From: Russula earlei | Lineage: Eukaryota; Basidiomycota; Agaricomycetes; Russulales; Russulaceae | Length of the DNA stretch: 64,000 nt | Direction of reading: 5' to 3' | Assembly: GCA_025769875.1 (NCBI GenBank) | Contig: JAGFNK010000128.1 | Location: 53,425-117,424 of the forward strand | In this document: piece by piece, positions 17,136-60,636 of the stretch | Layout of the letters: the number at the start of each line of letters is the position of its first letter | Position numbering within the stretch: position 1 is the stretch's first letter | Notes under the pieces: generated by a model | Databases searched by the model: none | What the model saw: the letters and a program-made list of their open reading frames with translations, nothing else | What the model was told of the DNA's origin: nothing | Position numbers and translations under genes: made by a program

Positions 17136-17270
17136 AAAGAGCCATGTGGCTTATTCATCAACCATCCACCTGTCCACTCCTACTCCAGGACAACGACAGG
17201 GCGTTCTTCCCTTCCAAGAGCTGCTCACCATACCTTGCTCTACCCCTCCATTTCAACCCCCTAAACCCTC

Positions 17271-27758: not shown

Positions 27759-30700
27759 CTGTAGGGGGTCAGGTAGTTGGCCACCCTGACAAGTTGGCCA
27801 CAGGGGACTTTCTGAACTTTCTAGAGTATTAATGCCTGTGTAGTTGATTTGGGCAGTAGGAACTATGCCCAATGTTGCCTCAAACAAAAGTTCTTACACT
27901 GGCAGTGATTGCTTGATGAGTTAGAGGCATCTGATTGCTGCTGAGTCGGCAATATGACCAATTTGGGAAGGTCACCAGAAGGCCGAACATGGTGGCCATA
28001 CCATAGGTGATTCATTTCGGATGCAAATCCTTCAAAACTTCATGTTTCATGTTTCGTTTCCCTATCTGCTCTTTCTCAGCCATAATTTCTACTGTGATTT
28101 CACTTTTCTGGCCCATGTTACTCAATTCATTTCTACAACATTTCCCATTTCACACTTCAGACAGGCTGCATTCAGCAACACCCATTGGGCTCAGATGACA
28201 ATGTGCATCCAGCACCACCAGGACTTGACATCAGACTGACCTGACCTCTCACTCATAACCTTCAGAATATGTTAAATGAATTTATTTACACCTCAATGTG
28301 CTCGGTGACACTTGTACATGCCATATCAGCATGTCATCCTTTGGAAATTGCTGTGGGACCAGGAGGCAAAAGTCCACCTCTGTTTGAGACAGTAGCTATT
28401 GGGCATTAAATACTACAAACTACAGGGATGCTACTCCTCCAACTAAGGGTCCATGAGCGTGGGATGGCACGGTTTGGATGAGGGGCGAGGGGGGCAGCGA
28501 GCCCTTGGTTTGGATGTTGGAGGACACATCATCAGGGTCCATGCATAGGCACATGGTGGGGCGAGGACAATGGTCCATAGACAATGATGGAGGGGTGAGA
28601 GCAGGCTGAAGGGGAGTCGACAATGGGCAAGAGCAATATGATGAAGGGATAGGGAGTGTAGGGAGCCAACCCAGGGCACGCTGAGTTCATACGACTTGAT
28701 CCAAGGGTGGGTATCAACAGAGAGGAGTGGGTTGCAAAGAGGGGTCCTATTCTGAACTCTTCCTACTACAGAGTAGCTAGGGTGTTTTTATATACAGGAG
28801 AGAGGTACTAGAGATGAAAGGCATGAAAGAGAATCGAGACTGGTTGAGACAGTTGAGGCAGTTGTGAAAGGCTTGAGACACAAGCACATCGCGTGAGGCA
28901 GGGCATGGCGTGCACATGTGGTTGGTGGTGAATGGCCTGGGCAATGCAATCAAGGTCTTGATGTCGCACACAGTGTGGCTTGTGGTGTGTGGTCAGTGGA
29001 TGGCCTGGAACGAGAGGGAGGTGGCAAAGGATAGGAGGAGGCATCACATTGTATTGCATTTCCACACATGATTCCGTGGCCAGCCATATGGCTACCTTAC
29101 ACTCCTGGGGGCTTGAAACTTTGACCATCCTCAGTCAAGCATCTGAATGCAAGTGTTTTGAGCCTTTCGCATCTGAATTGAGGTGGCGGTTGCGGCTGCT
29201 TGTGGAAGATGCAGGGGCGGCAATTGGTGTTTGGCGATGGCGACGATGGAAGAGGCGAAGGCAATGGGAGATGGAGGCGATGGAGACAAGGATGGCGGTG
29301 ATGAGATGGCAGCTGTGTGGCAGTGGTGTTGTCTTGTGGTGGTAGCGGCGTGGTCGTCTCCATTGCAGGCGGCAGCAGCGGGCATGGACAAGGAGCAGAG
29401 GTGTAGGCAGCAAGCATGAGTTCGTAGACAGAGGTGTAGGTGGCGAGGACTCGAGAAGGAGGATACGTGGGGTGGCTTGCACAAGGGTGGCATTTGTCGT
29501 CTTGCAGTGGCGGTGGCGGGGTCGTCTCCACTGCAGGTGTTGGCAGCAGACATGGGCAAGAGTGCATGAACAGATGGGGAGGTGATGTGGGAGGCAGGGT
29601 GCAGTGTGCTGTTGGTGTCAGTGGCTGCCTCTCCTGCAGTGGTGGTGTGGTGGTGGCTGCTGCTCCTTTTGTGGCGTGTCGTGGCTAAGTTCGTGGCCAA
29701 GGCCTTCTTGGTCTTCTGGGGTGGTGCTGGTGGCGAGAGGTTGTGACAGTGCGGCGGTGCTGGTGTCGTGCAAAACTGAGACTGATGCAGCGGGTGCTGA
29801 GACAAAGACTGAGGGTGAGACCAAGGAGGCAGTGATGGACAGAACTGGTGCGGCGACAAAGACAGATGGAGTGGAGGCGATAATGGAGGGCATGGCAATG
29901 GGAAGGGAGACGGCAGTGAGCGACACAGGGGTGACGGCAGACGGTGGGGACAGAGCGGTGGCTGGGACTAGGCCCAGAACGGCGGCGGACAAGGCGACGG
30001 ATGAGGCTGAGGGCGTGGTGGTGGTGGCTGAGACTGAGATGACTGGGGCTGAGGGCATGGCAGAGATGGCAGCGGCTGGAAATACTGGCAATACGGCGGA
30101 CTGGGCTGAAGTGACAAGTGCGGGCGAGGCTAAGATGGAGGCTGATGCGAAGTCAGTGGCTGGCATGACTGAGGCTACTGTGGCGGCAGACGAGACTGAG
30201 CTGGAGATGGGAGACATAGAGGCAACAGCTGGCAATGCTGGTGCTCTGCTGGATGAGGGCGCGGCGGCTAACGAGACGAAGACAGGGTTGGCAGTGAATG
30301 GAACTGGTACGACGGCAGATACTGAGGCTGAGGCTGGGGCCACTGGGGTGGGCAGAGCAGCGACGGAGGTGGGCAAGACTGAGGTGGCGGCAATAGTGAA
30401 GGCGGGCGATGCAGTGAGATTGAGACCCAGGCAGGACGGCAGAGATGTCGAAATCCTACACGTGTAAAACCATCAGATACCACAAATACTTGAAATATTG
30501 TAAGAATACTTACATATTGATATGCTCCCAAAGTTTGAAGCAAATCGATGCACTAGAACATTTAGAAAAAAAGAAATCAGCATTCTGGAGTAGGGGGTAG
30601 GAGTCAACGGCAAGGATTCCCACGGGTGGCCAAGATCGTCGATTTTCTCTGTTTGGCAGTCACCTCGCAAAAATATTCATAGCATGACAACAACACACTC

Positions 30701-34969: not shown

Positions 34970-35145
34970 ACAACAGGGCAACTTTATTCAAGATGGTAGC
35001 ATATACAGGTGGGAACTAAGGCTAAGGGACAGGAAAAGCACAAAAGACAGGCATATGAAAGGAAATCTAGAAATAAGAAGGGGACCAAAGCTGGACAACA
35101 CAAGGTATTGAGTCATGGTCTCCAGCAGCTGTGGTAGTGGCGTGT

Positions 35146-35638
35146 TGTCACAAGTACCGGTTCTTCAGACCGGACCGGCAACTGGACAAGCCTACCTGGA
35201 CAGACCTGACGATTCCCACGTGTTTTCATGACTCACTTAGCCTCGCATGTACCATCACCTTCCAGCGTGTTCCAGTCTCGATTGCCTCACCGTTACCTTG
35301 TGTCTACTATTTGATATAGGATACATTGTCTATATAAACCTGTCTGTAGAAGAGAACAAGCGATAAGCTTGTTCTCTTGTGAAATATCACTGGATTCTAG
35401 CTTTGGGACTGTAGGCTTGCAGGGAATCAAGCAATTGACTCAGAAACTCTCTCTACTCTCTAAGTCTTCGAACGCGAAGACTTATTTGTCGTCTTTCCAC
35501 TCCATGGTACACACTAGCCTTCGCTGTGTTGTCACCGAGATCCCCAATTCTCACGAGAACTCATCGTCTTGTTCAACTCAGTGCGCACGTCTTGCGTGTG
35601 AAACAATTTGTCAGCGACACTGCCCCCAGTTGGTGACA
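35146..35638 (+). repeat. 5' LTR of A2
   Basis: TGTCACAAGTACCGG...GGTGACA, 493 bp, with TATATAA near 35330 and the AAGCTTGTTCTC hairpin. The self-complementary site TTAGAACAAGCTTA follows at 35639-35652. Confidence 0.93.
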
Positions 35639-40780: not shown

Positions 40781-42019
40781 ATGTCTTCCACCCAAAACTC
40801 TCCCACTGCTTCCACTGCTACCCTCGTACCCACTCCACCTTACTCTCCTGCACTTATCCACCTGCCACTGTCCAGAGAACCTTCTCCCTCAACGGCGGCA
40901 ACCATCAATACCAGAATACTCATCCGACGCGCCGCACAACATGCCGCAATGATTGTACAAGTGTGCGAACTATGGGAAGACGACTCCCTCACCACCATAC
41001 TGAGAGCCTTCGGTAATTGATCTCCTACCTGAGGAGTCAACTCGCCTGTCAGAACCTGCAGTCCTTCCTACCACGTCTGCTCCCCTTCACCTGACCCCAT
41101 CCCTATTCCCCCACGCACCACCACTCCTATTATCCAACAAGACAAAAACATCGTTCTACTCAACGAAAACTTTGCCCCAAAAAACCTTGAGAGAACTCCA
41201 CCCCCTGTTTATGAACCACCCGCCAACCACGCCCAACTCACGGAGCTACAAGAACTCGGAGAAGGATGGGAAGAAGGAGATCTCGGACTAGACCTATTAA
41301 TCCCAGACCCAGGCAATGAAGATGACACACTTCCCCCTCGCTTTGTTCTCCCTGACCTCACACATGGCTTCCCCTCCTTGTTAGCCACCTACGATCTCGG
41401 ATGCCCCACCCACCGTATTCCCATTTGAGCTCGAGCCGATCCTTACCCCCATCCTCTTCTTACACAGAAAGATGCCTTCCTGTTCAAGGACGGCCTCAGA
41501 CACACCGCAGCCATAAATGAGGCACTTAGGTTCGAACAAGACCTATCCCTAGAGGTGGAAGTTCGTCGCTATCGGTTTGCCATAATGAAGACATGACAAA
41601 TGGCAAACAGTCTCATCGCTGCTCGTGAAAGGTACCATGACATGGTATGGGAAGTAAGGGACTCGGAGATCAAACTAGCCAGGGCTAATGCCAAAGCACA
41701 CCTCGAACTGAGAGTCTTGTTCGGAACCATGCCCCAACTCACTGACCAGGAGCACAAAGACGCCAAAGAAGCCTTGTTAGACCCGTGGTATCAATTCCTC
41801 CCTCGACTCTCAGACAAATGTGCTTGGTGTCATGATGGAGGACACGATACGTTTGAGTGTCCCAAGATTGCCATCTGTGTCCTTTGCAATCGTCACGGGC
41901 ACATAGCTGACCATTGTAGAAACCCACACCGACGATGCAAAATGTGTTGAGTCCCTCGTGACCAGCTCCATTTCCATACTCATTGCTGTCAATTGACCAT
42001 CCTCCCTTATACCGCTTAG
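40781..42019 (+). pseudogene. ORF3 of A2, disrupted
   Basis: Same frame from ATG 40781 to TAG 42017-42019. Stops near 41018, 41030, 41426, 41594 and 41948 are all TGA; A3 has CGA at the first three. The Pro/Gly motif is altered (ATYDLGCP). Both knuckles remain (CAWCHDGGHDTFEC, CVLCNRHGHIADHC near 41820-41925) with HRRC following. The starting distance from pol (56 bp) matches A1 and A3. Confidence 0.85.
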
Positions 42020-42037
42020 ACGTTAACAAGGGGGTGA

Positions 42038-42531
42038 TGTCACAAGTACCGGTTCTTCGGACCGGACCGGCAACCGGACAAGCCTACCCAGACAGACCTG
42101 ACAATTCCCGCGCGTTTTCATGACTCACTTAGCCTCGCATGTACCATCACCTTCCAGCGTGTTCCAGTCTCAATTGCCTCACCGTTACCTTGTGTCTACT
42201 ATTTGATATAGGATACATTGTCTATATAAAACCTGTCTGTAGAAGAGAACAAGCCCTAAGCTTGTTCTCTTGTGAAATATCACTGGATTCTAGCTTTGGG
42301 ACTGTAGGCTTGCAGGGAATCAAGCAATTGACTCAGAAACTCTCTCTACTCTCTAAGTCTTCGAACGCAAAGACTTATTCGTCGTCTTTCCACTCCGCGG
42401 TACACACTAGCCTTCGCTGTGTTGTCACCGAGATCCCCAATTCTCACGAGAACTTGTCGTCTCGTTCGACTCAGTGAGCACGTCTCGTGCGTGAAACGAT
42501 TTGTCAGTGACACTGCCCCCAGTCGGTGACA
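42038..42531 (+). repeat. 3' LTR of A2
   Basis: Pairs with 35146-35638. A polypurine tract (AACAAGGGGGTGA) ends at 42037. Confidence 0.93.
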
Positions 42532-42610: not shown

Positions 42611-43205
42611 TGTTGTGATCTACCCTTCTTTCGGTTTGTCCCTGAAACACTTCTTATTGTTCTCTACTTTTACCCTCGTCCCCTTGGTTACCATTTCATC
42701 CCTTGATATTGATGGCCCCTTATTGTTTCACTCGTTGTGATTTAACTATTGTTTGAGTCCCTTTTGCTACTGGTTAGTAATTATCTATTGTTCTGCATAT
42801 GGTACTGTACAGCCCTGCTAGATACAGTGTTTAAGCACCTGTAGAAGCTGGGGAATGCCCCAAGCTTAGCTTTGTCTCATCTCCTGTTGCATCCCTTGCC
42901 CTGCACGCCCTCCCAAATCACAAACTTGCTTGTGCTGGCCTATACCTTGCTTGACCTAAGCACACCTCAGGGAACCCTTGTGTTTCTCTTCCTCCTCTGC
43001 TTCTCTCTTGTCATCCTCCTCTTCTGTGAAACCAGAAGATTGACTCTGTCTGTGGACTGAGTCATTGTCTGACTCAGCCTTGAGATGCTAAACCCTTGAT
43101 CCAGTCTCCTTGAGCCGGCCCCACTGAAACCCTTGAACCAAGTCACAGGGACTTGGCCCCCACTGAACTTTGAGCTAACACTCTTACGGCCACGACGCCA
43201 TAACA
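42611..43205 (+). repeat. 5' LTR of B, with TATA-like box and start-site palindrome
   Basis: TGTTGTGATCTACCC...CCATAACA. TTTAAG at 42830-42835 (TATTTAAG in the 3' copy) lies about 30 bp before AAGCTTAGCTT (42862-42872). AAGCTAAGCTT at 43207-43217, two bases after the LTR, is its exact complement, as in a self-primed element. Confidence 0.9.
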
Positions 43206-44106
43206 CAAGCTAAGCTTCCCTACTCCATTCTGGAGATCAACCTTGAATTACCACCAAATTGCTGGGTCCACATCCAACCTAGATCCTCACCAGACCTCTC
43301 CCAACACGTCGTTGGAACTGCCACTTGGGACAGCTTCCACACCTTCCTCTGCTACGTTACTACTGAAAACAACGAAGAATTACCAGTTGAATTTATCAAC
43401 AACTGCTGGTTTGAGCTACAACTCAGAAGAGGACAGCTCTACACCCATCAGGACCTAGAACTCATCAGGAACAGCCTTGGATTAGGCTACTGGAGGGAAG
43501 ACGACCCTCTTTACGAACCCCCATCAGAAACAGAAGCCTCTTCTACAGAAGGCAACCCCCCTGAACCAGAAAACACCGCTGAAACTCAGACACCCTTTGA
43601 ATCCCCTGTGTTAGAACCAGAGGACCTCCCTGAAACCCAGGAACCCACCGAACCACCAGAACCCTGAACACCCTCACAATCCCCAGAACCCACTATGGCA
43701 GCACAAGCCCCACAAGCTGCTCCAGCCCCTCAAGTTGCTGTGCAACCAATCATAGCACCACAGGCTGTCCAAGGAACCAATGGATCCCTTAGTGACAAAG
43801 AACCCACAGTCTTCACAGGGGAAAGAAACAAAACTAAAAGATTCATCATGGAGTTCAACCTTTACTGGGGACTCAATGACGACAAGGCAGTCATGAGGGA
43901 CCCCTCTAAAAGGGTCATCCTAGCTCTTTCCTACATTCAAGGGGAAAAAGTAGAAGATTGGGTAAACTCACAAGTAAAGCCCTTAGAGAAAAAATAACTA
44001 GGGCCCAGAATACCATCAACTGAAACGACGAAGTCCTGTGGACCGATTTCATCACTGACTTCATGTTCAAACTCACCAACACAGCAGAAAAGGAAGATGC
44101 CCAGGC

Positions 44107-44597
44107 TGTCACCGACTGGGGGCGGTGTCGCTGACAAATCGTTTCACACGCGAGACGTGCGCACTGAGTCGAACGAGACAACGAGTTCTCGCGGAAGTCG
44201 GGGATCTCGGTGACAACACAGCGAAGGCTAATGTGTACCGCGGAGTGGAAAGACGGTGGATAAGTCTTCGCGTTTGAAGACTTAGAAGAAAGAGAGAGTT
44301 TCTGAGTCGTTTGCTTGATTCCCTGCAAGCCTACAGTCCCGAAGCTAGAATCCAGTGATATTCACAAGAGAACAAGCTTAGGGCTTGTTCTCTTCTACAG
44401 ACAGGTTTATATAGACATTGTATCCTATATCAAATAGTAGACACAAGGTAATGGCGAGGCGATTGGAACTGGAACACGCTGGAAAGTACTGGTACATGCG
44501 AGGCAAAACAAGTCATAGAACGCGCGGGAATCGTGAGGCTTATCCGGGTAGGCTTATCCGGTTGCCGGTCCAGTCCGAAGAGCCGGTTCTTGTGACA
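44107..44597 (-). repeat. 3' LTR of A3
   Basis: Nearly identical to 51920-52410. The complement of a polypurine tract (AACAAGGGAGTGA) follows at 44598-44610. Confidence 0.93.
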
Positions 44598-44615
44598 TCA
44601 CTCCCTTGTTAACGT

Positions 44616-45863
44616 CTAAGCAACATAAGGGGTGATAGTGGAACGACAATGGTGGGTGTGGAAATGAATTTGGTCGCGAGGGACTCGACATATCTTCTCG
44701 GGTTTGCATCGTCGATGGGGGCTTCTGCAATAGTCGGCGATGTGTCCTTGGCGATTGCAGAGAATACAGATGGCGATTTTTGAACATTCGAAGGTGTCGT
44801 GTCCTCCATCTTTGCACCAGGCACACCTGTCGGAGAGTCGAGGGGAGAATTGGTACCATGGATCGAGGAGAGCCTGCTTGGCGTCCTGATGCTCTTGTTC
44901 GGTGAGCTGAGGCATGGTCCCGAACAAGACTCGCGGTTCAAGACGAGCCTTGGCATTAGCTTTTGCCAGTTTGACCTCCGAGTCCCTTACCTCCCACATC
45001 ATGTCGTGATATCTTTCTCGAGCGGTGACGAGAGAGTTTGCCATTTGTCTTGTTTTCTTCAAAGCAAAGCGATAGCGACGTACTTCGGCTTCCAGCGATA
45101 GGTCTTGCTCGAACCTGAGTGCCTCGTCTATAGCTTTAGTATGTCTGAGGCCTTCTTTGAATAAGAAGGCGTCTTTTTGCGTAAGAAGAGGGCGAGGGTA
45201 AGGATCGGCTCGAGCTCGAATGGGAATACGGTGAGTGGGACACCCAGGGCCATAGGTGGCTAGGAGGGAGGGGAAGCCATGTGTGAGATCAGGGAGGACA
45301 AAACGAGGGGGAAGCGTGTCTTCTTCATTTCCTGGATCTGGGATTAGCAACTCTAGTCCTAGGTCTCCTTCCTCCCATCCTTCTCCAAGTTCTTCTAACT
45401 CAGAGCGTTGTACGCGGTCGATGTTTGGTTGATAAACCGGAGGTGGTGTTCTCTCGCGGTTCGCTGGAGCGAAGTTTTTGTCGAGTATGATTACACTTTC
45501 GACTTGTTGGATGATGGGTGTGATGGTGCGTGGGGGGATTGGAATAGGGTCGGGTGAAGGGGTGCGAACGTGATAAGATGGGGAGCGAGTTCTTATGGGC
45601 GTGTTGGTTCCTCGAGTGGGGGATCGGTTGCCAAAGGCGCGTAGTATTGTGGTGAGGGAGTCGTCTTCCCATAGTTCGTGTGCCTGGACAATCATAGCGG
45701 CATGTTGTGCGGCGCGTCGAATGAGTAGTCTAGTGTTGATAGTGGCCGCTGTCGAGGGGGATGGTTCTCTGGAGAGTGGCAAGTGGATGAGTGTAGGAGA
45801 GTATGGAGGAGTAGGTACGAGAGTGGTAGAGGAAGCGGTGGGTGAGTTCTGAGTGGAGGACAT
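44616..45863 (-). CDS. ORF3 of A3: intact 415-residue zinc-knuckle protein downstream of pol
   Basis: Begins at ATG 45863, 58 bp after the pol stop, and is uninterrupted. Residues 1-120 are Ser/Pro/Thr-rich with one helical-looking block (RRAAQHAAMIVQAHELWEDD). Residues 150-180 are acidic. Residues 198-209 are PSLLATYGPGCP, conserved in spacing in ORF3 of B and C. Residues 240-310 are charged and probably helical. Two CCHC knuckles follow (347-360 CAWCKDGGHDTFEC; 366-379 CILCNRQGHIADYC) and a further Cys at 386 after RSPHRR. The tail is basic. I know no characterised counterpart in chromoviruses. Knuckles suggest RNA or single-strand DNA binding; a role beside Gag or as a silencing-related accessory is speculation. 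It could be a downstream cistron or a spliced product; no signal decides this. Confidence 0.85.
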   Translation of the reverse strand: MSSTQNSPTASSTTLVPTPPYSPTLIHLPLSREPSPSTAATINTRLLIRRAAQHAAMIVQAHELWEDDSLTTILRAFGNRSPTRGTNTPIRTRSPSYHVRTPSPDPIPIPPRTITPIIQQVESVIILDKNFAPANRERTPPPVYQPNIDRVQRSELEELGEGWEEGDLGLELLIPDPGNEEDTLPPRFVLPDLTHGFPSLLATYGPGCPTHRIPIRARADPYPRPLLTQKDAFLFKEGLRHTKAIDEALRFEQDLSLEAEVRRYRFALKKTRQMANSLVTARERYHDMMWEVRDSEVKLAKANAKARLEPRVLFGTMPQLTEQEHQDAKQALLDPWYQFSPRLSDRCAWCKDGGHDTFECSKIAICILCNRQGHIADYCRSPHRRCKPEKICRVPRDQIHFHTHHCRSTITPYVA

Positions 45864-45921
45864 GTTTGTTGTGTTCTGGGGGATGAAGCGGTAGGGGATG
45901 ATTGTTCGAGGATGGCGCCTT

Positions 45922-48900
45922 TTATGCTTGAGGTCGTCCAGCCGAAGCGGAGTAGTATTCTTTTAGGAGTTCTGGAGCGTTGAGGTCATGATGGTCGACC
46001 CATGAGTTGTCTGAAGTGGGGTATCCTTTCCAGTGTACGAGGTATTGAAGTTTACGTGTTCGACCGAATCTTCTCGTGTCTAGAATTGCTTCAATTTCAT
46101 ATTCTTCTTCGTTTTCAACGGTTGGTGGAGGTCGTGTACATGGCGTTCCATATTCCTCCGTTTCCTTATAAGGAAGAAGTAAGTTGACATGAAAGACGTC
46201 GTGTATTTTCATCGATGACGGAAGTTGTAATTGATACGCGACTTTGGAGATTCGTTTTGTGATGGGGAATGGGCCGTATCTTTTGGGCATTAGTTTACGT
46301 GTTCCTCGTGTTTTGAGGTTTTTTGCTTCTAGCCATACGAGGGTTCCTTCTTCCATCTCTTCAATGTCAGGTCTTAGGGGTTGTTGTTTACGTTCAAGGA
46401 GTTGTTGGGCGTCTTGTCTTGCTTCTTCTAGCTGTTTTAGGCGATCGGTGGATGAAGGTACGTTGTTATCTTCTAGACTGATGTCGATCTGGGGTTTGAA
46501 TCCCATGAGGAGTTCGTGCGGTGATCTTCTAGACGTTTCATGTTTCCATGAGTTATGTGCGTATTCTGCTAGGGGAAGCATTTTTGCCCAGGAATGCGGG
46601 TGAGTCGTGGTCCAGGGTCTCAGGTATTGTTCTAGCCATGCGTTCATTCGTTCCGTCTGTCCATCGGTTTGAGGGTGAAACGCGGTAGACATGTTTTGTT
46701 TGATGCCTAGATTTTTACATAAGGCTTTCGAGAAGTTTGATGCAAATCGAGGGTCTCTGTCGGAGATAATCCTTTTGGGAACGCCGAACCAGGGCACGAG
46801 GTGTTTCAGATATTCGTGTGCAACACCTGTTCCGTCGATCGTTTTGTTGCATGGGATAAATTTTGTTGCCTTGGAGCATCCTTGATCAACTATGGTAAGG
46901 ACGCTGTCGAATCCTTCTGATTTTGGTAGGTCGGTGATCAAATCCATGGATACATATTGGAAGGGTCCCTGTTCAACGTGTGTGTCGAGTGGAAAGGTCG
47001 TGGCTTTCTTTCTGGGTATGTTGGTTTTAGATTCTTGGCATTTGGCGCAGCCTTTGACGTATTGTTCCACGAATTGTCGTTGTCATGAACCATTCTCCGG
47101 AGAGGGCCCTTGAAGGACCCTTCCTTATAGGAGGAAACCTGGTCTCTATGGTGTCACCCTGTTCACACGAGCAAAAGGGGTGAGTAGAGGTGTCCACAAT
47201 ATCGCGCGCGCATTGTTGCGCGAGCGATTCTCGGCACAATCGACATACAGCAAGCCCCACTTAAAGGCAACCCTTCTAGCAACAAAAGACAGTATTTAGG
47301 GCCTTCCTAAGGACCCTTTGGAACGACCCTAGGAGCTCTACAATAGGCACTAACCTAGTATCAAAGACCCTACAACGCATTATTAGACCAACTCTAATAA
47401 CTATAGAACGAACTATAAGACAACACTAAGGACCTTAATAGAAGTATTAGGGTCGACTCTAAGGACCCTAATAGAACCATATATAAGGGCCTTATAGGAT
47501 AACACTATTCTCTAACCAAACTACAAGTCCTCAAATGACCGGCCCTAAACTAACTAACAGGAAATGAATCAAGTGCTTGCACGTGCACTAAAGCAGTGAA
47601 CACGTGGACAATGGAAGCTCTTACTCATCAAGGGAAGCTTCTTACTCAGCAGCTTACTGAGCATGACTGAGCATGCTCAGTAAGCGTCCTCCGACTTCTT
47701 ACTCATCACTCTATTGTGCTTGATAACAAGGTTATGACTTGTTCCCTATTTAGCAGTTCTCTTGTAGTATATAAGCGCTCAATAAAGTAGCGGACAGTCC
47801 TCAGACTGTCCATTTGTTTACGGCACTCTCTATCCCTGGGATACTCCTTTAAGGACTGTCCCCTTGTGACCACTCTGGCCTCTTCCTGCGTGATTGTCCT
47901 CTCATACAACCCTTTGTGTGTACTTTGGATTTACTCTTGCCACGCCGTCTGACGTCTACCGATTTCGAGCTTATCCCTCGCTTGACTGATGTTCCGGATC
48001 TTTAGTCTGGTCTTCTATGTTTTTGATTGTCAAGTATTTGTTGGTGTCCTGCGAAGGGGGTGTCGTGGAATTGTCTTAGGATCTCTCGTCGTTTGTCGAT
48101 TTTGTCTTGTAGGTATTTTTTCTTGCGAAAATTTTGGGTGGGGAGTAGTGGTGGTTTGTTGTTCTCCTACTCCCTGGTTAAGGTCTTTGCGCGAGAGTGT
48201 GTGTCGGCAATGGTGTGCGTATGTCCGGGGACGTGTTCCATAGTGATGTTGAAGTCTTGGCATGTATTGCATCCATCTGGCTTGTTGTCCCGTCAATTTT
48301 TGTGGTTCTTTAAAATATGTGAGGTTTTGTGGTCGGTTCTTATTCTAACTGGTTTATCGGCTCCTAGGAAGAATGGTCGTCCGCTTTTTAGTCCAAAAAT
48401 TACTGCTGCTAATTCTTTGTCGTGAGCGTCGTAGTTCCTTTCCGCGTCTAATAGTGTTCTAGAATAGTAGGCGATTGGGTGAAAACCGTCTTCGTATTCT
48501 TGAGAGATAACTGCTCCTACGGCGAATCCTGACGCATCAGTGTCTAGAACGAACTGTTTTGTCCAATTTGGGGTGCGGAGTACTGGGTAAGATATGCAGG
48601 TTTCTTTTAGGATTTGAAAGGCTTGGTCTTCTTTCATTGTCCATTCCCACTGTCTGTTTTTCTTCGTCAGGTCGTTCAGTGGTCTTGCTTTTATGGAAAA
48701 GTTGGGTATAAAGTTTCGATAAAAGTTACAAAATCCTAGAAAGCTTCTGACTTCTTTGAGCGTGGATGGAGTTGGCCAGTCTTTAATTCCTTTGACTTTG
48801 ACAGGGTCCATGGTTATCTTTCCTTCTCCTATGATTACTCCGAGGTATTCCACCTTTTTTTTGTGGAATTGACACTTTTCTGGTTTAAGGTAGAGATCGT

Positions 48901-50140
48901 GTTGTTTCAATTTAGACAATATGTGGTTGACTTTGAGTGTATGTTCCACTTCATCATTTTGTGTGGCAATGATAATATCGTCCATATAAATTTTCAACCA
49001 TCCTTGTGCCAGTTCTTCTTGAAAAATGTCGTCCATCATGGTTTGAAAGGTAGCTGGAGAGTTTGTCAGTCCGAAGAACATCACCGTTGGTTCGAATAGT
49101 CCATCGCTGGTCTTGAAGGCTGCTTTCCATTCATCTCCTTCTTTGATTCGGATGTTGTTGTAGCCCCATCTGACGTCAAATTTAGTGAAGAGTTCTTTTC
49201 CTGCTAAAGCGTGAATTAATTCCGGGATTAAAGGTAGTGGATATACGTTGGGTATTGTCCATTTGTTCAAATTTCTATAATCTTGTACCGGTTGGAACTT
49301 TCCATCCTTCTTTTTTATGAGGAAGAATCCACTAGCATATGGTGAGTTGGATCTTCTTATTCGTTTGAGTCATAGATTTTGTTCAAGGAACTTTCCCTGT
49401 TCTTCTTTCTCTTTTGGTGAAAGGGGGTATACTCTACAGTTGATTGTTGTAGGGGCGTCTGATTTTAGGTCAATGGCGTGGTCCCATTTTCTTGGTCCAG
49501 GAAATCTTTCCGATTCTTGTTCCATAAATACTTGTCCGTATTGATGGTATTGGAGGGGGACTATTTCTTGCCAAGTTTGCGTTTTGTCTTGCATGTGTGA
49601 TTCTGCCAATTGTTGTGCTATGGTGGTCTTGCGTACTTGGGTTTGTAGCCACAGTTCGTCGCCCTCTTCCCATTCTGTTAACGCCTTGATCCAAGCTGGG
49701 GTTTCTTGATTTCCTGTAAGGGTGACTCTCCCCATGACGGTTCCCTTGGACCAGTTTATCCTTGGGTTTGTTGATTCCAAGAACGGATATCCTAAGATGA
49801 TATCATCTTGTCCTATGTCTGTGACTAGAAATTGATGCGTGTGTCTTTGTCCCAGTAATTTCAATTCTAGTTGGACAGTTTTGGTGACCTTTCCTGAGCG
49901 GTTTAGCGTTCCGTCGATGTTTTTAACGCTTCTTGTCGGAATTAGCTCTTTAGTTTGTAGGCATAATTCCTTTGTCAATTTAGGGGATATGAAGCATTCT
50001 GTAGCTCCACTGTCTATCAGGGCTTTTTTTTCGGCTTTGTTCGATCCGATGTAAATAGTAGTCATCACTGATATTGATTTCCTTTGAGACTTGTACATGG
50101 GATCGATACCTAAGGCTCGAGCAATCGCCGTTATGCTCAA
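45922..50140 (-). pseudogene. pol: pol of A3, nearly intact but interrupted
   Basis: In the -1 frame to gag, first Met about 15 codons in. Protease DSGAT near 50010; TGA at 49372-49370 where A1 has CGA (after EQNL); then open through RT (YMDD near 48985) and RNase H (DTDASGFAVGA near 48535). A 1-nt deletion near 48310 breaks the frame at the KNLTYF segment. 48290-48000 is unusually diverged. LTR G (47081 to about 47995) separates this from an intact C-terminal frame, 47070-45922: integrase CAKCQ, D (SMDLITDLP), D (IISDRDPRF), E (QTERMNAWLE) and chromodomain (EYEIEAIL...YLVHWKGYPTSDNSWVDHHDL). Confidence 0.93.
47081..47995 (-). repeat. Solo LTR, family G, in A3 integrase
   Basis: The minus-strand copy starts (on the plus strand) TGTCATGAACCATTC at 47081, preceded by GTCGT. 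Its other end near 47995 is degenerate: the last bases (GACTGATGTTCCGG...) do not match the usual end, and the target duplication is not recognisable there. Confidence 0.8.
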
Positions 50141-51846
50141 GCGTCCGAAAAATCCTGCTCTTTCTCCTCACTGTCCCCCATCAATGCCTTGATAAAAGCC
50201 TCCCTCTCTTCTATGGACAGCGCTTTTGCTGCCTTTGCTGCTTTGGCGACCTTGTCGACAGTGTCTTCCTTGACTATTTCTATAGTAGAGGATTCGGATG
50301 TGGTGGTGGTCGTGTCGGCGGCGCGTGCGCGAGTCACGTCGCGCTTCGGCTTTGTGGGGCAGTCACGAGCCAAATGTCCTCGAAGGGAGCAGTGGAAACA
50401 CCTTCCTTCTTCTCGGTGTTTTTGTTTCTCGGCTTCGGTGACTGCCTTGCGAGCGGCGCCTGCACTGGTATCCATTGCATTTGGGTCGCGTGGTGGGAGT
50501 CGCGGTCGCGCGGGTGTGGTGTTGCCTTGGTTGTTCCCGCGGTTGGCCCATGCCGAGTTGACCAGTCGTCCCCAAGGTTTGTTACTTTGAGGTTGGTTAA
50601 AGTTGCGTCCGCGTGTACTGGAATGATCGGACAAAATTGCGCGTTTGCGCATCCAGACCCTATGATGTTTCTGTGCTGCTGCAACCCAGTCCATAAAGGA
50701 GGTGGGGTCTTCGAGATCGAGGCACGATTCGACCAAGGATCGTGGGAGTCCCCACGCGAATAGTCTCATGACCGTCGGTTCGTCGACATCGAGTCCTGCA
50801 CGTCTGGCCAACAGTTGAAATTCAGATATATAGTCGTCAAGTAGGCCATCCTTCATTTTCAATTCTTTGAGTCGGTCTTGGGCTTTCTCGCGTTCTGCGT
50901 AGTCGGTGAACGCGCGTCGGAATTGTTGTCGCATAGCCTCCCACGCTGTCAGCCCGAGTGGGATATTGGTCGGGTCACTTTGCACGTCTTCGAGCCACTG
51001 GTCCATGGCTTCGAGCCATCCTTCAACTTTGGGTCCTTTCATTAGTGAGAGAAAGTATGCACACTTCTTGATAGGATCCCTGGCAATCTTACTGTCGTGG
51101 TTCATAGACATGAACCTATTGAACGCGACCAGGAACGCATGTGTGCGCGCGCGATCACCGTTAAAGAATTCGGGGGGAATCCCCTCGAGTTTCCCATAGT
51201 CGGGACCGCGTGCGTTGCGGTCGCGGTCTGTGCGTGTGTCGTGGTCGTCGGGGTCGGGGTCGGGGCTCGGGGGTCGTATTCCGCGACCTCCCATTCCGGG
51301 GAATGAGGCACGAGTGGGGGGTTGTGCTGTCCCGGATGAAGCGGGTTGTGGCTGGACCGGGTCGGGGTCAGTGGCGGCGACGAAAACGTTCGTCGTGGTC
51401 GTTGGTTCGAGCTCCATTGGAGCGTGGGTGGTGGGGGCCGGTCCTGGCGCTGGGGCGTGGCTTGAAGTCCTCGACCTCGGGATGGGTGTTCCTGAGGCTG
51501 TCAGTGTGGTGATATTAATGCCTCGGAGAGGGCTCTGTTGGAGTCTGAAGGCCGGTCGAGCGACGCGCGTCGCTTCCCACGTATCTCCACGTCGTTCGAT
51601 TTCGAACCACAGGCCGTAGAGGTGGCCCAGGGCTACTTTGGCACCCATCCAGTTGGCATAATAGCCGGTCCATGGCACACTGTCTTTCTGTATGGTGTAG
51701 AATTCGACACCATCGTCGAACATGGTTATGCTGGGAACATTCTTCTCTTGATCAGGTAACAACTCAAAGGGACATTTGAGGGCAGCAAGTCCTTCAATGG
51801 TTGGGAGTTGATACCCTTTGGTCTTCCAGTCTCGAGTTGTAGTCAT
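50137..51846 (-). CDS. gag: gag of A3, intact, 569 residues
   Basis: ATG at 51846 to TGA 50139-50137. The N-terminal 140 residues (MTTTRDWKTKGYQLP...) are conserved in A1 and A2. A Pro/Asp-rich linker follows, then the capsid-type Gag domain (GPKVEGWLEAMDQWLED; FRRAFTDYAEREKAQDRLKE), and a CCHC knuckle at about residues 483-496 (CFHCSLRGHLARDC). The acidic C-terminus ends SEEKEQDFSDA. It would form the virus-like particle and bind the RNA. The GGATTTT heptamer lies four codons before the stop, and pol overlaps in the -1 frame. As the only intact gag of the family here it could still supply particles to relatives; that is inference. Confidence 0.93.
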   Translation of the reverse strand: MTTTRDWKTKGYQLPTIEGLAALKCPFELLPDQEKNVPSITMFDDGVEFYTIQKDSVPWTGYYANWMGAKVALGHLYGLWFEIERRGDTWEATRVARPAFRLQQSPLRGINITTLTASGTPIPRSRTSSHAPAPGPAPTTHAPMELEPTTTTNVFVAATDPDPVQPQPASSGTAQPPTRASFPGMGGRGIRPPSPDPDPDDHDTRTDRDRNARGPDYGKLEGIPPEFFNGDRARTHAFLVAFNRFMSMNHDSKIARDPIKKCAYFLSLMKGPKVEGWLEAMDQWLEDVQSDPTNIPLGLTAWEAMRQQFRRAFTDYAEREKAQDRLKELKMKDGLLDDYISEFQLLARRAGLDVDEPTVMRLFAWGLPRSLVESCLDLEDPTSFMDWVAAAQKHHRVWMRKRAILSDHSSTRGRNFNQPQSNKPWGRLVNSAWANRGNNQGNTTPARPRLPPRDPNAMDTSAGAARKAVTEAEKQKHREEGRCFHCSLRGHLARDCPTKPKRDVTRARAADTTTTTSESSTIEIVKEDTVDKVAKAAKAAKALSIEEREAFIKALMGDSEEKEQDFSDA

Positions 51847-51919
51847 ATTGAGAGAAACAGATATATTCGTTTGCGAGCGTGCGGTTCGGGGTCAGTGGTT
51901 CAGAGTAAGCTTGTTCTAA

Positions 51920-52410
51920 TGTCACCGACTGGGGGCGGTGTCGCTGACAAATCGTTTCACGCGCGAGACATGCGCACTGAGTCGAACGAGACAACGAGTT
52001 CTCGCGGAAGTCGGGGATCTCGGTGACAACACAGCGAAGGCTAATGTGTACCGCGGAGTGGAAAGACGGTGGATAAGTCTTCGCGTTTGAAGACTTAGAA
52101 GAAAGAGAGAGTTTCTGAGTCGTTTGCTTGATTCCCTGCAAGCCTACAGTCCCGAAGCTAGAATCCAGTGATATTCACAAGAGAACAAGCTTAGGGCTTG
52201 TTCTCTTCTACAGACAGGTTTATATAGACATTGTATCCTATATCAAATAGTAGACACAAGGTAATGGCGAGGCGATTGGAACTGGAACACGCTGGAAAGT
52301 ACTGGTACATGCGAGGCAAAACGAGTCATAGAACGCGCGGGAATCGTGAGGCTTATCCGGGTAGGCTTATCCGGTTGCCGGTCCGGTCCGAAGAGCCGGT
52401 TCTTGTGACA
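51920..52410 (-). repeat. 5' LTR of A3
   Basis: Same ends as the other A LTRs. The complement of the self-priming site (TAAGCTTGTTCTAA) directly precedes it on the plus strand at 51906-51919. Confidence 0.93.
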
Positions 52411-52995
52411 CAGGCAGCTCTTGTCAAATTGGAAATGAAGGATTCCCTTGATGACTACATCTTCACCTTCGAACAACTTCTTACTAAAACAGGACGGCCA
52501 GAGATGGACGTAATTGCCATTGAGAGCTTCAAAAATGGGCTCAAAAGTGGCCTCTACTGTGCAATCTTAAACAGGGACACCTGGCCCACTACTCTCCAAG
52601 AATGGAAGGAGGAAGCCAGGAGACAACATCAATGATTTGTCACTATCAGGGAGAAACTCAAAGGAAAAAAGACCACACACTCCTCTTCAGAGCACAAGTC
52701 CCATCACCCTGACTGAATGCAAGTAGACGCCGCCAAGTCCAACTTTAAGAAACTCACTGAAGAAGAAAGAAAACAATTAGCAAAAGAAGGACACTGCTTC
52801 CATTGCAGGGAGAAAGGTCACCTCAGCTGGGAATGCCCCAAAAATACGGTCTTCACCACTTCAAAGGCCCACGTCGCTGAATCTACCCCAGAATCGTCCA
52901 AGGAAGAAGAAGCCTCCACTATGGTGGCCCGCATGAAAGCATTACCACAGGAGGATAGAGCCAAACTTTGGGATCTCATCCTCAAAGAGGATTTT

Positions 52996-55900
52996 CTCTA
53001 GGCAAAGGTACAACAGTCAGTACTAAGGCCCAAATAGATACCATTGTCCAACATAAGGAAAACTCAATGAAAGTTCCCTTCATGATCACAACAAATGGAA
53101 AGACTGGCCAAGCGCTCTGAGACAGCGGAGCAACGGAAAATTTCATTAGCCAAGGAATTGTGGGAAAGTTACAAATCCCACTTCAAACCCTCAGAACCCC
53201 CAGACCAATTATTAATGTGGACAGCACTAACAACCAAGGAGGAGCGCTAACCCATTATGCCCACATGGCTGTACATCATGGACCCACCACCCGACTTCTC
53301 ACCTTCTATGTCACCAATTTCACCTTCTATGTCACCAATTTGGGAGAAGACAGAATGATCCTCGGATATCCCTTCTTAAAGGCAATAAATCCCATTATCA
53401 ATTGGAGTACCAGTTGTCTCAGAAACCATTTAGGGGTCCTTCTCACCCCCATATCCTGAAACGTTTTCTTGGAAGAAGCAGCCAAATGACTCCCACCCAG
53501 TCGAGGAGAACTCGACTTTAGAATCACCCTGAAACCGGATGCCCCCAAGTTCCTTGACTGCTGAACCTACCCTCTGCCTCAGAATGAAAAACAAGAACTA
53601 TCAAGACAGATACAAGAAGACCTAGCCAAAGGTTTCATCAAAGACGGGATCTCAGACTTTGTATCCCCTGTCTTCTTTGTCCAGAAAAAAGATGGCACTG
53701 CCCCGCGAATGGTAGTAGACTACCGAAAGCTTAATAATGCCACAGTCTCTGACTACCATGCTTTACCACACATGGAAGAACAATTGCCCCGACTAAGGGG
53801 CAAAACCACCTTTAGCAAATTTGACGTCAGGGCTGGCTACAACAACATCCTAATCCACCCAGAAGACCAACACAATGGTGCCTTCAAAACTCAATTTGGC
53901 ACCTTTTTCCCCATGGTAATGGGCTTTGGCTTTACCAATGCCCCAGCAGCCTTCCAATGGGCAATGAACCACACCCTTTGACCCTGGCTTCTAAAATACC
54001 CAGAGAACACCTGCAACTATCTAGATGACATAGCAATAGCCATGGGGATAGGGGAAGAACACCTTCACCGACAAATCACACATGAATTTCTTGATCTCCT
54101 TGAAAGAGACTCTTATTTTTTAAAGGCATCCAAATGTGCCTTTGAACAAGAGGAAATTGACTTCCTGGGCTTCTGAATCAACCAAGGAACCCTCAAAATT
54201 GACCCAGTCAAGATGGACGGCCTCAAAAACTGGCCAAGACCCCCCAATAACCTGAAACAAGTACAACAAATCATGGGCACCCTCAATTACCAGCAACCAT
54301 TTATCTGAGACTTCGCTAAAATAGCTCGCCCCATTTTCTCTACAATCAAAAAAGGAACCCCCTTCCTCTGGACCCGAAAAGTGACCTCAGCCCTAGAAGC
54401 CTTAATATCAGCAGTCTGCAACAACCCTGAACTCTACACTGCCAACCCTGACCTCCCATACGAATTAGAAACCGACGCCTCACAATTTGCCACCGGAGCA
54501 ATCTTATTTCAGAAAGATCCAAGAGTAAAGAGAAAAATGATTAGCAATATGTCACACGCATTCAATGAAGCAGAAAGGAACTACCCGGTTTAGGATAGGG
54601 AGTTCCTAGCCCTGATCCTTGCACTCCAACACTGGCGCTACCTATTGGTCAGAACAAAACACCCCATCAAGATTTTTACTGATCATGCCAACCTTGCCCA
54701 CTATCAACTCCCCCATAAGATTAATTGAAGGATCACAGGTAATATTTCCACATTGGTGGATTATCATTTTGAAATTTACCACAAACCCGGGACTTCTAAT
54801 CACGCAGATGCTCTCTCATGATGACCCAACCACAATGATGGATCAGGAGATAACCAGAATGTCATGGCACTCCCTGACAAACTCTTTATTTGCACACTCC
54901 ACACAGAAGATCTGTATGAACAAGTCTTAAAAGAACAAAAAGTCCGACTACTGGACCTACTTATGTGGAAGAACAAACACAATTTACAAGAAGAAGACGG
55001 CACACTATTCAAAGATGGAAAATTAGTTGTCCCCTATCTAGAACCCCTCTTACAAAGAATTCTACACACATATCATGACAGCATCCTTGGTGGACACACG
55101 GGAAATGCCCGAACCTTGTACTCAATCCAGGAGTCATTCTGGTGGCCTAAAATGGGTTATTTCATCCAGGACTACATTTGGGGTTGTGCCACTTGCCAAG
55201 CCAACAAATCTTCCACACACCCTACTTGCCCCCTGGTCTACCCAATTCCCCCTGAATTCCATAAAACCATTCCAAACCGTAGCCATCGACTGGATCGTTG
55301 ACCTCCCCCTGTCAGAAGAAAAAAATACCATCATGACCATCACGGATCATGATTCCACCAAAGCAGCAATATTCATACCTTGCCGTAAAGATATGGGAAC
55401 TCTAGAAATGGCTAAATTATTTTTACAATATGCCTTCCCTTGGACCGGGGTTCCCTCAAAAATCATTTCCGATTGCAACTCCCGCTTCACCTCTGACTTA
55501 TTCAAAGAAGTCTCTAGAATTTTGGGAACCAACCAAAACCTAAGTACTGCTTACCACCCTCAAACTGATGGAAAATCAGAAAGAACTAATCAAACTCTGG
55601 AAATGTATCTCCGCATCTACACTGGAGAGAAACAAGAAGAGTGGGCACACTGGCTTCCTATAGCCCAGTACCACTTCAACGCTCACATGTCCACAACCAC
55701 CAAACAAACCCCCTACAAGTTGCTCATCAGTTTTAACCCACAGGGACTCAGCACCCAGCTAAAGTCTAAGTTCCCAGGAATTCAAGAATGCCTTCAGGCT
55801 CTAAAAGACATGCGAGAATTGGCCCAAGAAGCAATGAAAAGGGCACAAAGCCACTGGATCAAGGAAACCAAATTCAAAGGGTTCAAAGAAGGACAGAAGG

Positions 55901-56291
55901 TTTGGCTGGAGGGGACTAATTTGAAGACCCCCCATCAATTTCAGAAGTTCCATCTGAAACAGTTTGGGCCTTTTGTCATCACCAAGAAAATCTCCCACGT
56001 TGTCTACCAACTCTGCCTTCCCCCTCAATGGAGTATCCATGATGTCTTCCATGCCTCCCTTCTATCACCCATCACTGAAATGGCCAAACATGGTCCTAAC
56101 TTCCCCGAACCCCCCCTGACCTCCTCTTGGGAGAATATGAGGTCGAGAAGATTACTGCCCAACGTCTCCATAGGAACCAACTCTAGTACAGAGTCTGGTG
56201 GAAAGGGTACTCCATGGCAGAAGACACCTGGGAACCCCTCTCAAACCTTAAAAATGCCCAAGATGCCATCACTACCTTTCATCTACAATGA
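52996..56291 (+). pseudogene. pol: pol of B, disrupted
   Basis: In the -1 frame to gag. Protease DSGATENF near 53122; an 18-bp tandem duplication follows near 53300-53335 (FYVTNF repeated). RT: KFDVRAGYNN near 53820, FGFTNAPAAFQ near 53930, active site YLDD near 54018. RNase H: ETDASQFATGA near 54468, TDHANL near 54680. Integrase zinc region (HTYHDSILGGH...CATCQ) near 55065-55200; core D (AIDWIVDLP), D (IISDCNSRF, where Arg is usual), E (KSERTNQTLE). The chromodomain near 56130-56250 is in a shifted frame (EYEVEKITAQRL...YRVWWKGYSMAEDTWEP). Stops are mostly TGA at likely Arg positions (53118, 53484, 53562, 53979, 54174, 54306), with a TAG near 54592. Confidence 0.92.
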
Positions 56292-56309
56292 CCCACCAAG
56301 CTCCAGACT

Positions 56310-57983
56310 ATGTCCACCACTAACTCTGATCCCACAGAATCCCACCACTCGGACGAAAGCCTAGATAATCTGGAACATCAGTTTCAAAGACTTACAATAC
56401 AGCAACATACTTTACTTCCCTGAATCAATTCACATAACCCCCCTTCCTATTCCGTTAATGATCCCACTATCCCTGACCATGGACACACCATTTTTAACAT
56501 AGTCGCCAGGGAACGACTCTTTTCTGGAATTTTCTACCCTGGCGACTTCCGCAGATTTCAATTACTTATGATGGACCCCCGTTTCTCCAAATTTCATTTA
56601 TCTATACAAAGAGCAGTACTCACAGATTTGGTATGGAACCATATTGTACGTTCAGCCTCCATAAATACCCCCACTCCTTCAGAGTGGTCAGCTTGGCATC
56701 ACAAACATGCCACCTCTACTTACAACACTCCCATGTCATCCATCCCCTGCTCCTAACTCGTCCCCTCTACCTATCCTCACCCCTTCCCCCACCATCAAAC
56801 AAGAACCCCTCTCACCTGAAATTATCCAACACATCATCGACCAACACACCTTCATTGTCCCAGACGAGGCCGAACTCCAGGACCTCGCTGCCACCCTTAA
56901 CCCACTTGCCATCCAAGAAGGAATGCCCTCGCCAACTCCAACTGAAGCCGATCCCACTCACCCTGGCCCCCCCTGGTTTGTTTACAAACCCTATACACAT
57001 ATTCTCCCTTTCTATATTAATGTTAATGGGCAACAATGCCTATCACCATACTTACGTGTTGCTTTATACAATGACGAACCCATGCTTCTAGGAACTATGG
57101 GTCGAGGAGAACCCGCTTATGGAGAAAAGCTCATAGCTTGACCCATCATCTCTGCCCCCCACCCTGCCACCACTGCCTCTGACCTCCACCTCTTAATTGA
57201 GGACCACCCTTTCCATTTCAATGTCGCTCAGGCTCTTGAGAACCTCCACGACCCTGGCACCCTTGCCAATGTCTACCACCTCCGCACCAGCTCTCTCCAA
57301 TTAAAGGTTTTAGAGGGCAAGCGCGTCTCCATCCAAGGGTCCCTAAGTGTCCTTCAAGGACAGCTCACTGATTGACTCCATGAGATCCAGTCCCACATCA
57401 AAGAAACCGCTGCCATCTGTAGCTACCTTTGAGCAAATAACACCTCCGTCTGAGTCCGTCACCAACTCGACAACCTGATGACCGATGGGGGCCTCACTCG
57501 TAACACTGGACCATTTTACTCATTAGCGGGAAGCTATGACAGAATCGAGGAGTCAAAGGAACCATCTGTTCCCCCTTCCCCTCCGCTACCCACTCGTCCC
57601 CCTCTCTCTTTAACCCCACCCCTTGAATACCTCCCTCGTGTTGTCGACCAGTCCCAGAACAATGCTCCCATGGGGTCACCCTCCCACTTCCCTCTGATGA
57701 CGCTAGCACCCCCAACACCCCTCTCACCGCTGCACGTATGACCAAAGTGCAGCGTCATCAACTCCAAAAGTGACAACACGTTTGCAAACACTGTAACACC
57801 AGAGGACACTGGAACAAGGACTGCAACAGACCTCACACCAACTGTAGTGGACAAGTGGATTGTATCCTCAGGAGGACTCACCAAAGTTATAGAGGTTTCT
57901 GTCCCAGGACAACGGGAGTCCAGAGCACATGGCCAGAAGTCAAAGGTGATGAACTCTGTGAGTTGGGTCCTGAGACCAATTAG
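56310..57983 (+). pseudogene. ORF3 of chromovirus B: knuckle protein downstream of pol, disrupted
   Basis: ATG 56310 (MSTTNSDPTESHHSDES) lies 19 bp after the pol stop. The frame has TGA near 56421 and a frameshift near 56710-56750. It then continues as PLSPEIIQHIIDQHTFIVPD..., the motif EPMLLGTMGRGEP (57076-57113), and an ENLHDPGTLANVYHLRTSS segment. Further TGA codons lie near 57139, 57373, 57430 and 57452, and a second frameshift lies before the C-terminus. The last part encodes a CCHC knuckle (CKHCNTRGHWNKDC, 57790-57831) and NRPHTNC, then ends at TAG 57981-57983. This gives the same architecture as ORF3 of A and C. Confidence 0.75.
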
Positions 57984-58013
57984 TTCAGAGAACTAAGCAT
58001 GAGGGGGGCATGA

Positions 58014-58608
58014 TGTTGTGATCTACCCTTCTTTCGGTTTGTCCCTGAAACACTTCTTATTGTTCTCTACTTTTACCCTCGTCCCCTTGGTTACCGTTTC
58101 ATCCCTTGATATTGATGGCCCCTTATTGTTTCACTCATTGTGTTTTATCTATTGTTTGAGTCCCTTTTGCTACTGGTTAGTAATTATCTATTGTTCTGCA
58201 TATGGTACTGTACAGCCCTGCTAGATACAGTATTTAAGTGCCTGTAGAAGCTGGGGAATGCCCCAAGCTTAGCTTTGTCTCATCTCCTGTTGCATCCCTT
58301 GCCCTGCACGCCCTCCCAAATCACAAACTTGCTTGTGCTGGCCTATACCTTGCTTGACCTAAGCACACCTCAGGGAACCCTTGTGTTTCTCTTCCTCCTC
58401 TGCTTCTCTCTCATCATCCTCCTCTTCTGTGAAACCAGAAGATTGACTCTGTCTGTGGACTGAGTCATTGTCTGACTCAGCCTTGAGACGCTAAACCCTT
58501 GATCCGGTCTCCTTGAGCCAGCCCCACTGAAACCCTTGAACCAAGTCACAGGGACTTGGCCCCCACTGAACCTTGAGCTAACGCTCTTATGGCCATGATG
58601 CTGTAACA
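58014..58608 (+). repeat. 3' LTR of B
   Basis: Pairs with 42611-43205 and follows a polypurine tract (GAGGGGGGCATGA). TATTTAAG near 58230 is the promoter candidate. Confidence 0.93.
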
Positions 58609-59675: not shown

Positions 59676-60636
59676 TGTCAAGACTCACTGTTGAACTATC
59701 CAGTTCAAGAGCGAGGGATAAGCTCGATGACGAGTCGATAGACGTCCAAGAGTGCGTGGGCAAGAAGTAGAATCCAGAGTAGTAACAGATACCAGAGAGG
59801 TATTGTTACTGTGAGAGTCGAGCAATCACGCAGGGAAGGGGCCAGAGTAGTCACAAGGGGACGGTCCTTAAAGGAGTATCCCAGGGTTGAGAGTGCCGTA
59901 AACAAATGGACAGTCTGAGGACTGTCCGCTACTTTATTGAGCGCTTATATACTACAAGAGAACTGCTAAATAGGGAACAAGTCATAACCTTGTTATCAAG
60001 CACAATAGAGTGATGAGTAAGAAGTCGGAGGACGCTTACTGAGCATGCTCGGTCATGCTCAGTAAGCTGCTGAGTAAGAAGACTCTTCTTGATGAGTAAG
60101 AGTATCCACTGTCCACGTGTTTACTACTTTTAGTGCACGTGTAAGCACCTGATTCATTTCTTGTTAGTTAGTTTAGGGCCGGTCATTTGAGGACTTGTAG
60201 TTTGGTTAGGGAATAGTGTCATCTTATAAGGCCCTTATATAGTTCTATTAGGGTCCTTAGAGTCGACCCTAATACTTCTATTAAGGTCCTTAGTATTGCC
60301 TTATAGTCGTTCCATAGTTATTAGAGTTGGTCTAATAACGCGTTGTAGGGCCTTTGATACTAGGTTAGTGCCTATTGTAGAGCTCCTAGGGTCGTTCCAA
60401 AGGGTCCTTAGGAAGGCCCTAATACTGTCTTTTGTTGCTAGAAGGGTTGCCTTTAAGTGGGGCTTGCTGTATGTCGATTGTGCCGAGAATCGCTCGCGCA
60501 ACAATGCGCGCGCGATATTGTGGACACCTCTACTCACCCCTTTTGCTCGTGTGAACAGGGTGACACCATAGAGACCAGGTTTCCTCCTATAAGGAAGGGT
60601 CCTTCAAGGGCCCTCTCCGGAGAATGGTTCATGACA
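59676..60636 (+). repeat. Solo LTR, family G, in right arm of fold-back element 2
   Basis: 961 bp, TGTCAAGACTCACTG...GGTTCATGACA, flanked by CACGC (59671-59675 and 60637-60641). Confidence 0.92.

Follow-up and report, generated by a model that had tools for sequence, protein, structure and literature searches.

The window analysed here is a 64,000-nucleotide stretch of Russula earlei DNA (C128:53425-117424), taken from an assembly of 66.6 Mb in 1374 contigs, and it holds copies of three retrotransposon families, designated A, B and C. All three are chromoviruses, according to the chromodomain and integrase domains that Pfam detected in one copy per family: the Chromo match reached an E-value of 3.7e-11 in A (locus L006), 5e-14 in B (L063) and 8e-11 in C (L039), and in each of these copies it is accompanied by SH3_Tf2-1 and integrase domains, with the chromodomain behind the integrase in Pol. 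By sequence comparison, each family encodes a homologous predicted protein, ORF3, in the order chromodomain, ORF3, 3' LTR, and the distance from the ORF3 end to the aligned 3' LTR falls within the same 11-30 bp in A, B and C. Genome-wide, at least 102 matches were found for A (101 of 669 candidates scored), at least 150 for B (150 of 525 scored) and at least 132 for C, counting split pieces (150 of 200 scored). The features of the window are as follows.

44107-52410, minus strand: A3 element, LTR to LTR, from LTR alignment and flanks
44616-45863, minus strand: ORF3 of A3, intact, 415 aa, its stop 18 bp from the 3' LTR
45432-45446, minus strand: PPPVY (PPxY motif) of A3 ORF3, residues 140-144
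45069-45311, minus strand: conserved centre of A3 ORF3, about residues 185-265, including PSLLATYGPGCP, from alignments
44970-45101, minus strand: predicted long helix of A3 ORF3, residues 255-298, from a low-confidence AlphaFold model
44646-44825, minus strand: zinc module of A3 ORF3, residues 347-406
44598-44615, minus strand: spacer from the ORF3 stop to the 3' LTR, with a purine-rich run inside, read from the sequence
45922-50140, minus strand: pol of A3, divided among three listed ORFs, with 58 bp from the end of the final one to ORF3 (ORF list; domains shown on copy L006)
50137-51846, minus strand: gag of A3, which also encodes a CCHC knuckle and matches Retrotrans_gag (Pfam)
40781-42019, plus strand: ORF3 of A2, with several stops; LTRs at 35139-35638 and 42031-42531
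9259-11451, plus strand: ORF3 of A1, with stops and an insertion within the zinc region; LTRs at 3117-3608 and 11470-11962
42611-58608, plus strand: B element including both aligned LTRs, with A3 inserted within it (gag on both sides of A3)
56310-57983, plus strand: ORF3 region of B, broken here and continuous with the Pol frame in most copies that could be read, from translations and copy comparison
56737-57138, plus strand: open piece of B ORF3 carrying PMLLGTMGRGEP, from translations
23369-24565, plus strand: ORF3 of C, with 3 internal stops; 3' LTR from 24585

The A3 element is bounded by two 491-bp LTRs (44107-44597 and 51920-52410) of 99.2% identity, and CAGGC stands on either side (44102-44106 and 52411-52415) as a target duplication of 5 bp. 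The original prediction of an extra gene at 44616-45863 on the minus strand is borne out by its intact 415-aa frame, and the A1 and A2 frames named with it encode the same protein in damaged form. A repeat inside the A1 insertion (about 10445-11291) has further copies near 26134-27004, 59676-60543 and 61539-62241. The A3 element lies within the gag region of B, a region that contains a CCHC motif; the LTR parts of B (42611-43205 and 58014-58608) are 96.8% identical, against 99.2% in A3, in line with a later arrival of A3. The ORF3 predicted for B is present in parts in the window copy, which carries stops and frame changes: its N terminus and knuckle share a frame, PMLLGTMGRGEP is read in a different one, and this copy is therefore broken. 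The C frame was rightly predicted to encode the same kind of protein, its stops notwithstanding. A family C-type LTR also lies inside the C pol gene, in two parts (20644-20887 and 21343-21498) with about 455 bp of different sequence between them. Elsewhere in the window, 15996-18278 and 29131-30467 contain overlapping ORFs on both strands and share a repeat (16198-16443 and 29353-29598, 85%); a Pfam search of these two regions gave zero matches.

The relation of ORF3 to Pol differs among the families. In B, ORF3 is an in-frame C-terminal extension of Pol, with open frames of 1683-1693 aa at five of the 150 scored places, and one B stretch with integrase and chromodomain matches runs from the integrase through the end of ORF3 with zero stops. 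Among 20 B loci (L041-L060) the junction was readable by pattern in 16, and 14 of these junctions are free of stops; the exceptions are L041, which is the window copy, and L045. The stop at the junction of the window B copy is copy-specific, and the earlier view that the extra frame begins after the pol stop in every family applies to A and C, where ORF3 is a separate ORF, and fails for B. Of 20 family A loci, 15 allowed the end of pol and its stop to be read, with pol in frame 0, 1 or 2 relative to ORF3 in five loci each; in the remaining five the pol end was shifted or not found. The spacer that separates pol from ORF3 carries indels. Since the frame relation varies among copies, A ORF3 must have its own start, which might be provided by an internal transcript, by reinitiation or by splicing. 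In two A copies (L013 and L020), indels have produced a single open frame across Pol and ORF3, of 618 and 709 aa, much as in B. The C spacer, about 138 nt long and in the ORF3 frame, gave a dN/dS of 1.03, or 1.20 with 6 copies, based on few differences; a value near 1 indicates that the spacer is seemingly untranslated.

Pairwise dN/dS values, calculated by the Nei-Gojobori method, show clear purifying selection on ORF3 in all three families. For A ORF3 the value was 0.062 (91 pairs among the 14 copies that were intact, out of 20 fetched; dS 0.67), for A' 0.064 (3 copies), for B 0.124 around the motif (11 copies, pieces trimmed to one gene) and for C 0.241 (8 copies). The corresponding values for the adjacent pol were 0.064 in A (11 copies, trimmed to one gene) and 0.324 in C (7 copies), the C pieces for both genes being trimmed to one gene, so that ORF3 is about as constrained as pol; the choice of copies with open frames favours low dN/dS for ORF3 and pol alike, and CpG decay may inflate dS. 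Comparison of A with A' was saturated overall, and the N-terminal part gave 0.164. By region, A ORF3 has a dN/dS of 0.106 in the arm, 0.034 in the centre, 0.016 in residues 271-345, which are the most constrained part, and 0.062 in the zinc region. The other two frames of A ORF3 gave values of 1.5 to 3.1 overall and of 2.3-3.1 within A, with about 12-13 stops per sequence. A dN/dS far under 1 in three families, obtained by the kind of copy comparison that the original prediction proposed, fits the functional, conserved module it had described. A passenger, that is, captured host sequence without function or a chance open frame, would accord with the finding of just two database relatives in searches of limited sensitivity, but the selection data contradict it, as do the frame controls and the recurrence of ORF3 in three families at the many genomic places counted above, and we consider it barely credible.

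Two further patterns concern the mutations themselves. The internal stops of A ORF3 copies across the genome are TGA in all but six cases; this is the pattern expected from CpG decay (CGA to TGA) and might point to cytosine methylation or a RIP-like process. In C, the third-position difference is 0.137 in ORF3 versus 0.047 in the adjacent pol, a hint of recombination between C subtypes.

The ORF3 protein follows a common order, with a proline-rich arm carrying a PPxY motif, a conserved domain, two short helices and one long helix, and one or more zinc knuckles. The conserved domain starts near P-x-[LI]-x-[GAT]-T-x-G and is common to A, B and C; this portion of the gap-free motif first proposed is shared, with [GAT] in place of the original [GA], and the D-[LP]-x-L-x3-V-x2-Y segment said to follow it is retained just partly in B. 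In family A the zinc module consists of two CCHC knuckles and an additional C-x5-C-x9-H-x-H-x-C, a pattern present in 16 of the 17 A and A' ORFs, the exception (L020) having one residue more. B and C have a single CCHC knuckle each. The further Cys expected after the knuckle is found in A and in B, where most of the 18 loci read have an extra C-x5-C-x5-H-x6-C that resembles a stretch of the metagenomic homologue P0005, but in C it occurs in one of the 19 copies read, the window's own. The C knuckle falls into at least two subtypes, VCPHRPDR and NCPNRGDH (loci L021-L040).

PPxY lies upstream of the central domain in all 17 A and A' ORFs, in 7 of 8 C copies and in the database relatives P0004 and P0005. 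Every single representative sequence contains at least one PPxY. In B, 23 loci were scanned with a pattern that fixed neighbouring residues and left the first P and the Y free, and PPxY was present in all 20 loci in which the segment was found, two of these being the same copy. The B motif is unaligned with the PPxY of the other families. A PPxY arises by chance in 5-22% of shuffles of the proline-rich arm per lineage, and the joint chance for A, B, C and P0005 is about 3e-4, as the product of the per-lineage rates.

Searches of the central domain against Pfam, NCBIfam and PDB returned nothing above curated cut-offs and, below them, zf-CCHC and chance-level matches. Two AlphaFold models place weak strands in the centre, followed by two short helices and the long helix, and a fold search with these weak models (mean pLDDT 47 and 40) gave no convincing match. 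The position of ORF3 after pol recalls the envelope gene of retroviruses and insect errantiviruses, and a third ORF after pol is usually assumed to be env-like, according to the portion of the bdelloid rotifer study consulted (PMC5408684). Such an identity is disfavoured by the hydropathy scan, in which the maximum 19-residue mean was 0.7-1.1 in A, B and C and 1.69 in P0005, with no hydrophobic segment of the transmembrane kind, and by the Pfam search of ORF3, which gave no glycoprotein; zinc knuckles and the Pol fusion in B also speak against it, and we regard an envelope-like role as very improbable.

The zinc knuckles, the long helix and the lack of a transmembrane stretch would suit an additional structural protein of the Gag kind, acting as nucleocapsid and assembly factor and packaging RNA in the particle, for which the PPxY would be incidental. 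The PDB sequences that A3 ORF3 matches best, although weakly (E 0.05-0.5), are retroviral nucleocapsid or Gag chains. Against this, Pfam detected no gag domain in ORF3 of A, B, C, P0005 or P0004, Retrotrans_gag being found in the A3 Gag itself; the Gag of A and of B carries a knuckle already, and the coupling of ORF3 to Pol in B would lead one to expect Pol-like amounts of the protein. A Gag-like role is possible but rather unlikely.

Homology between the families was assessed by local alignment scores against window-shuffled controls, 200 per pair. Scores exceeded the shuffles for A-C (z 5.1), C-B (z 6.6), C-P0005 (z 10.2), B-P0005 (z 5.7) and A-P0005 (z 34), whereas direct alignment of A with B gave z 1.6, a score reached by 11 of 200 shuffles, and A' with B gave z 1.3, reached by 27 of 200. 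Profile comparisons yielded E-values of 6.4e-4 for A-C (179 columns), 5.7e-4 for A-B (just 34 columns, in the zinc region) and 4.1e-4 for B-C (75 columns spanning the motif); the probabilities assigned by hhalign were low (28-35%). By these sequence measures the ORF3 family is real; given the weak direct similarity of A and B and the strong pairs with C and P0005, the predicted tie between A and B runs through C and P0005. P0005 is a JGI metagenome protein annotated as hypothetical, 30% identical over 91% of A3 ORF3. P0004, the Russula earlei hypothetical protein F5148DRAFT_569745, is 67% identical over 45% and runs on into non-aligning sequence. These two were the relatives found when 5.8 billion proteins were searched twice, the second time with the 8000 best candidates scored, and a third search, aimed at Pol-fused relatives, gave none among 8000 scored; these searches depend on exact word matches and are of limited sensitivity, so that divergent relatives elsewhere could escape.

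The local ORF3 scores (C-B 96, A-C 84, A-B 63, A-P0005 427) do not follow the order of integrase-chromodomain identity (A-C 61%, A-B 44%, B-C 42%), and A is far nearer to P0005 than to C. It is possible that ORF3 either evolves much faster than the integrase or was exchanged between families, and the original idea of a module retained while three lineages diverged has yet to be established. The greater divergence between families of ORF3 (24% for A with B and C) than of integrase (42-61% identity) would accord with an arms race, and separate expression in A and C would suit a counter-defence factor acting against host silencing or heterochromatin spread; however, dN/dS within families is low and a suppressor able to diffuse would hardly be expected to be joined to Pol, as it is in B, making this role distinctly unlikely.

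The existence and constraint of the ORF3 protein are well supported, and from its arrangement we infer a mechanism. That ORF3 is part of Pol in one family and encoded separately in another suggests that it works with Pol; its direct fusion behind the integrase and chromodomain in B suggests that it acts with Pol/integrase, and its place there points to the integration complex. Zinc knuckles as a class bind nucleic acid. We therefore favour, at a probability of roughly 35%, an accessory replication protein that would partner Pol/integrase, its knuckles holding element RNA or cDNA, its long helix possibly joining copies, and its PPxY recruiting a host WW-domain protein, most likely a ubiquitin ligase of the Rsp5/Nedd4 type. 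Ubiquitination of the particle, the pre-integration complex or a bound host factor might then help trafficking, uncoating or integration. The PPxY suggests a WW-domain partner, and host WW and HECT matches cluster at three loci (C75:87150-88816, C23:91880-93759 and C23:97838-99594), which are candidate Rsp5/Nedd4-type ligases. The weak fold models and the CCHC knuckle already present in the Gag of A and B weigh against this ligase model, as do the chance rate of PPxY in each lineage, the unaligned position of the B motif and its absence from one C copy. The fuller proposal, of a previously undescribed gene for an integrase partner that hijacks Rsp5/Nedd4 through PPxY in envelope-less elements, that has moved between a Pol domain and a self-started gene and that was possibly exchanged between families, is in our judgement unlikely as a whole.

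A constrained third protein with at least 100 matched places per family, either fused to Pol or separate, offers a handle on the roles of Pol accessory domains. If the PPxY works as proposed, replication of these elements would be linked with the ubiquitin system of the host, in a setting other than that of enveloped viruses. Annotation of gene content may miss such proteins, as the two relatives from so large a collection suggest, within the limited sensitivity of the search.

In some retroviral Gag proteins, a CCHC knuckle stands alongside PPxY. ORF3 resembles Gag proteins with a PPxY late domain (e.g. PMC2958808, PMC4337731, as described in the parts consulted) in carrying this motif. Unlike retroviral Gag, it has no recognised capsid domain and belongs to an element with a separate Gag, and its PPxY is a putative binding motif. 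Fungal LTR retrotransposons are commonly described as gag plus pol. Muszewska et al. 2011 (PMC3248453), in the portion consulted, report gag and pol and also complex elements into which domains have been inserted. Novikova, Smyshlyaev and Blinov 2010 (PMC2864245) describe fungal Gypsy elements that are chromoviruses like those studied here, some with an 'additional ORF of unknown function'; the available text gives this ORF no sequence, domain or analysis. The original statement that ORF3 has no described counterpart agrees with the accessible parts of the literature searched, with that additional ORF as a possible exception. Also comparable are the third ORFs described in LTR retrotransposons of bdelloid rotifers (Rodriguez et al. 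2017, PMC5408684), which, in the passages available, are likewise non-envelope, lie behind pol and are common to element lineages, and include GDSL esterase, DEDDy exonuclease, env-like and TM or CC types; unlike these, the fungal ORF3 has no recognised enzyme or transmembrane feature and is distinguished by its PPxY, its knuckles and its Pol-fused form.
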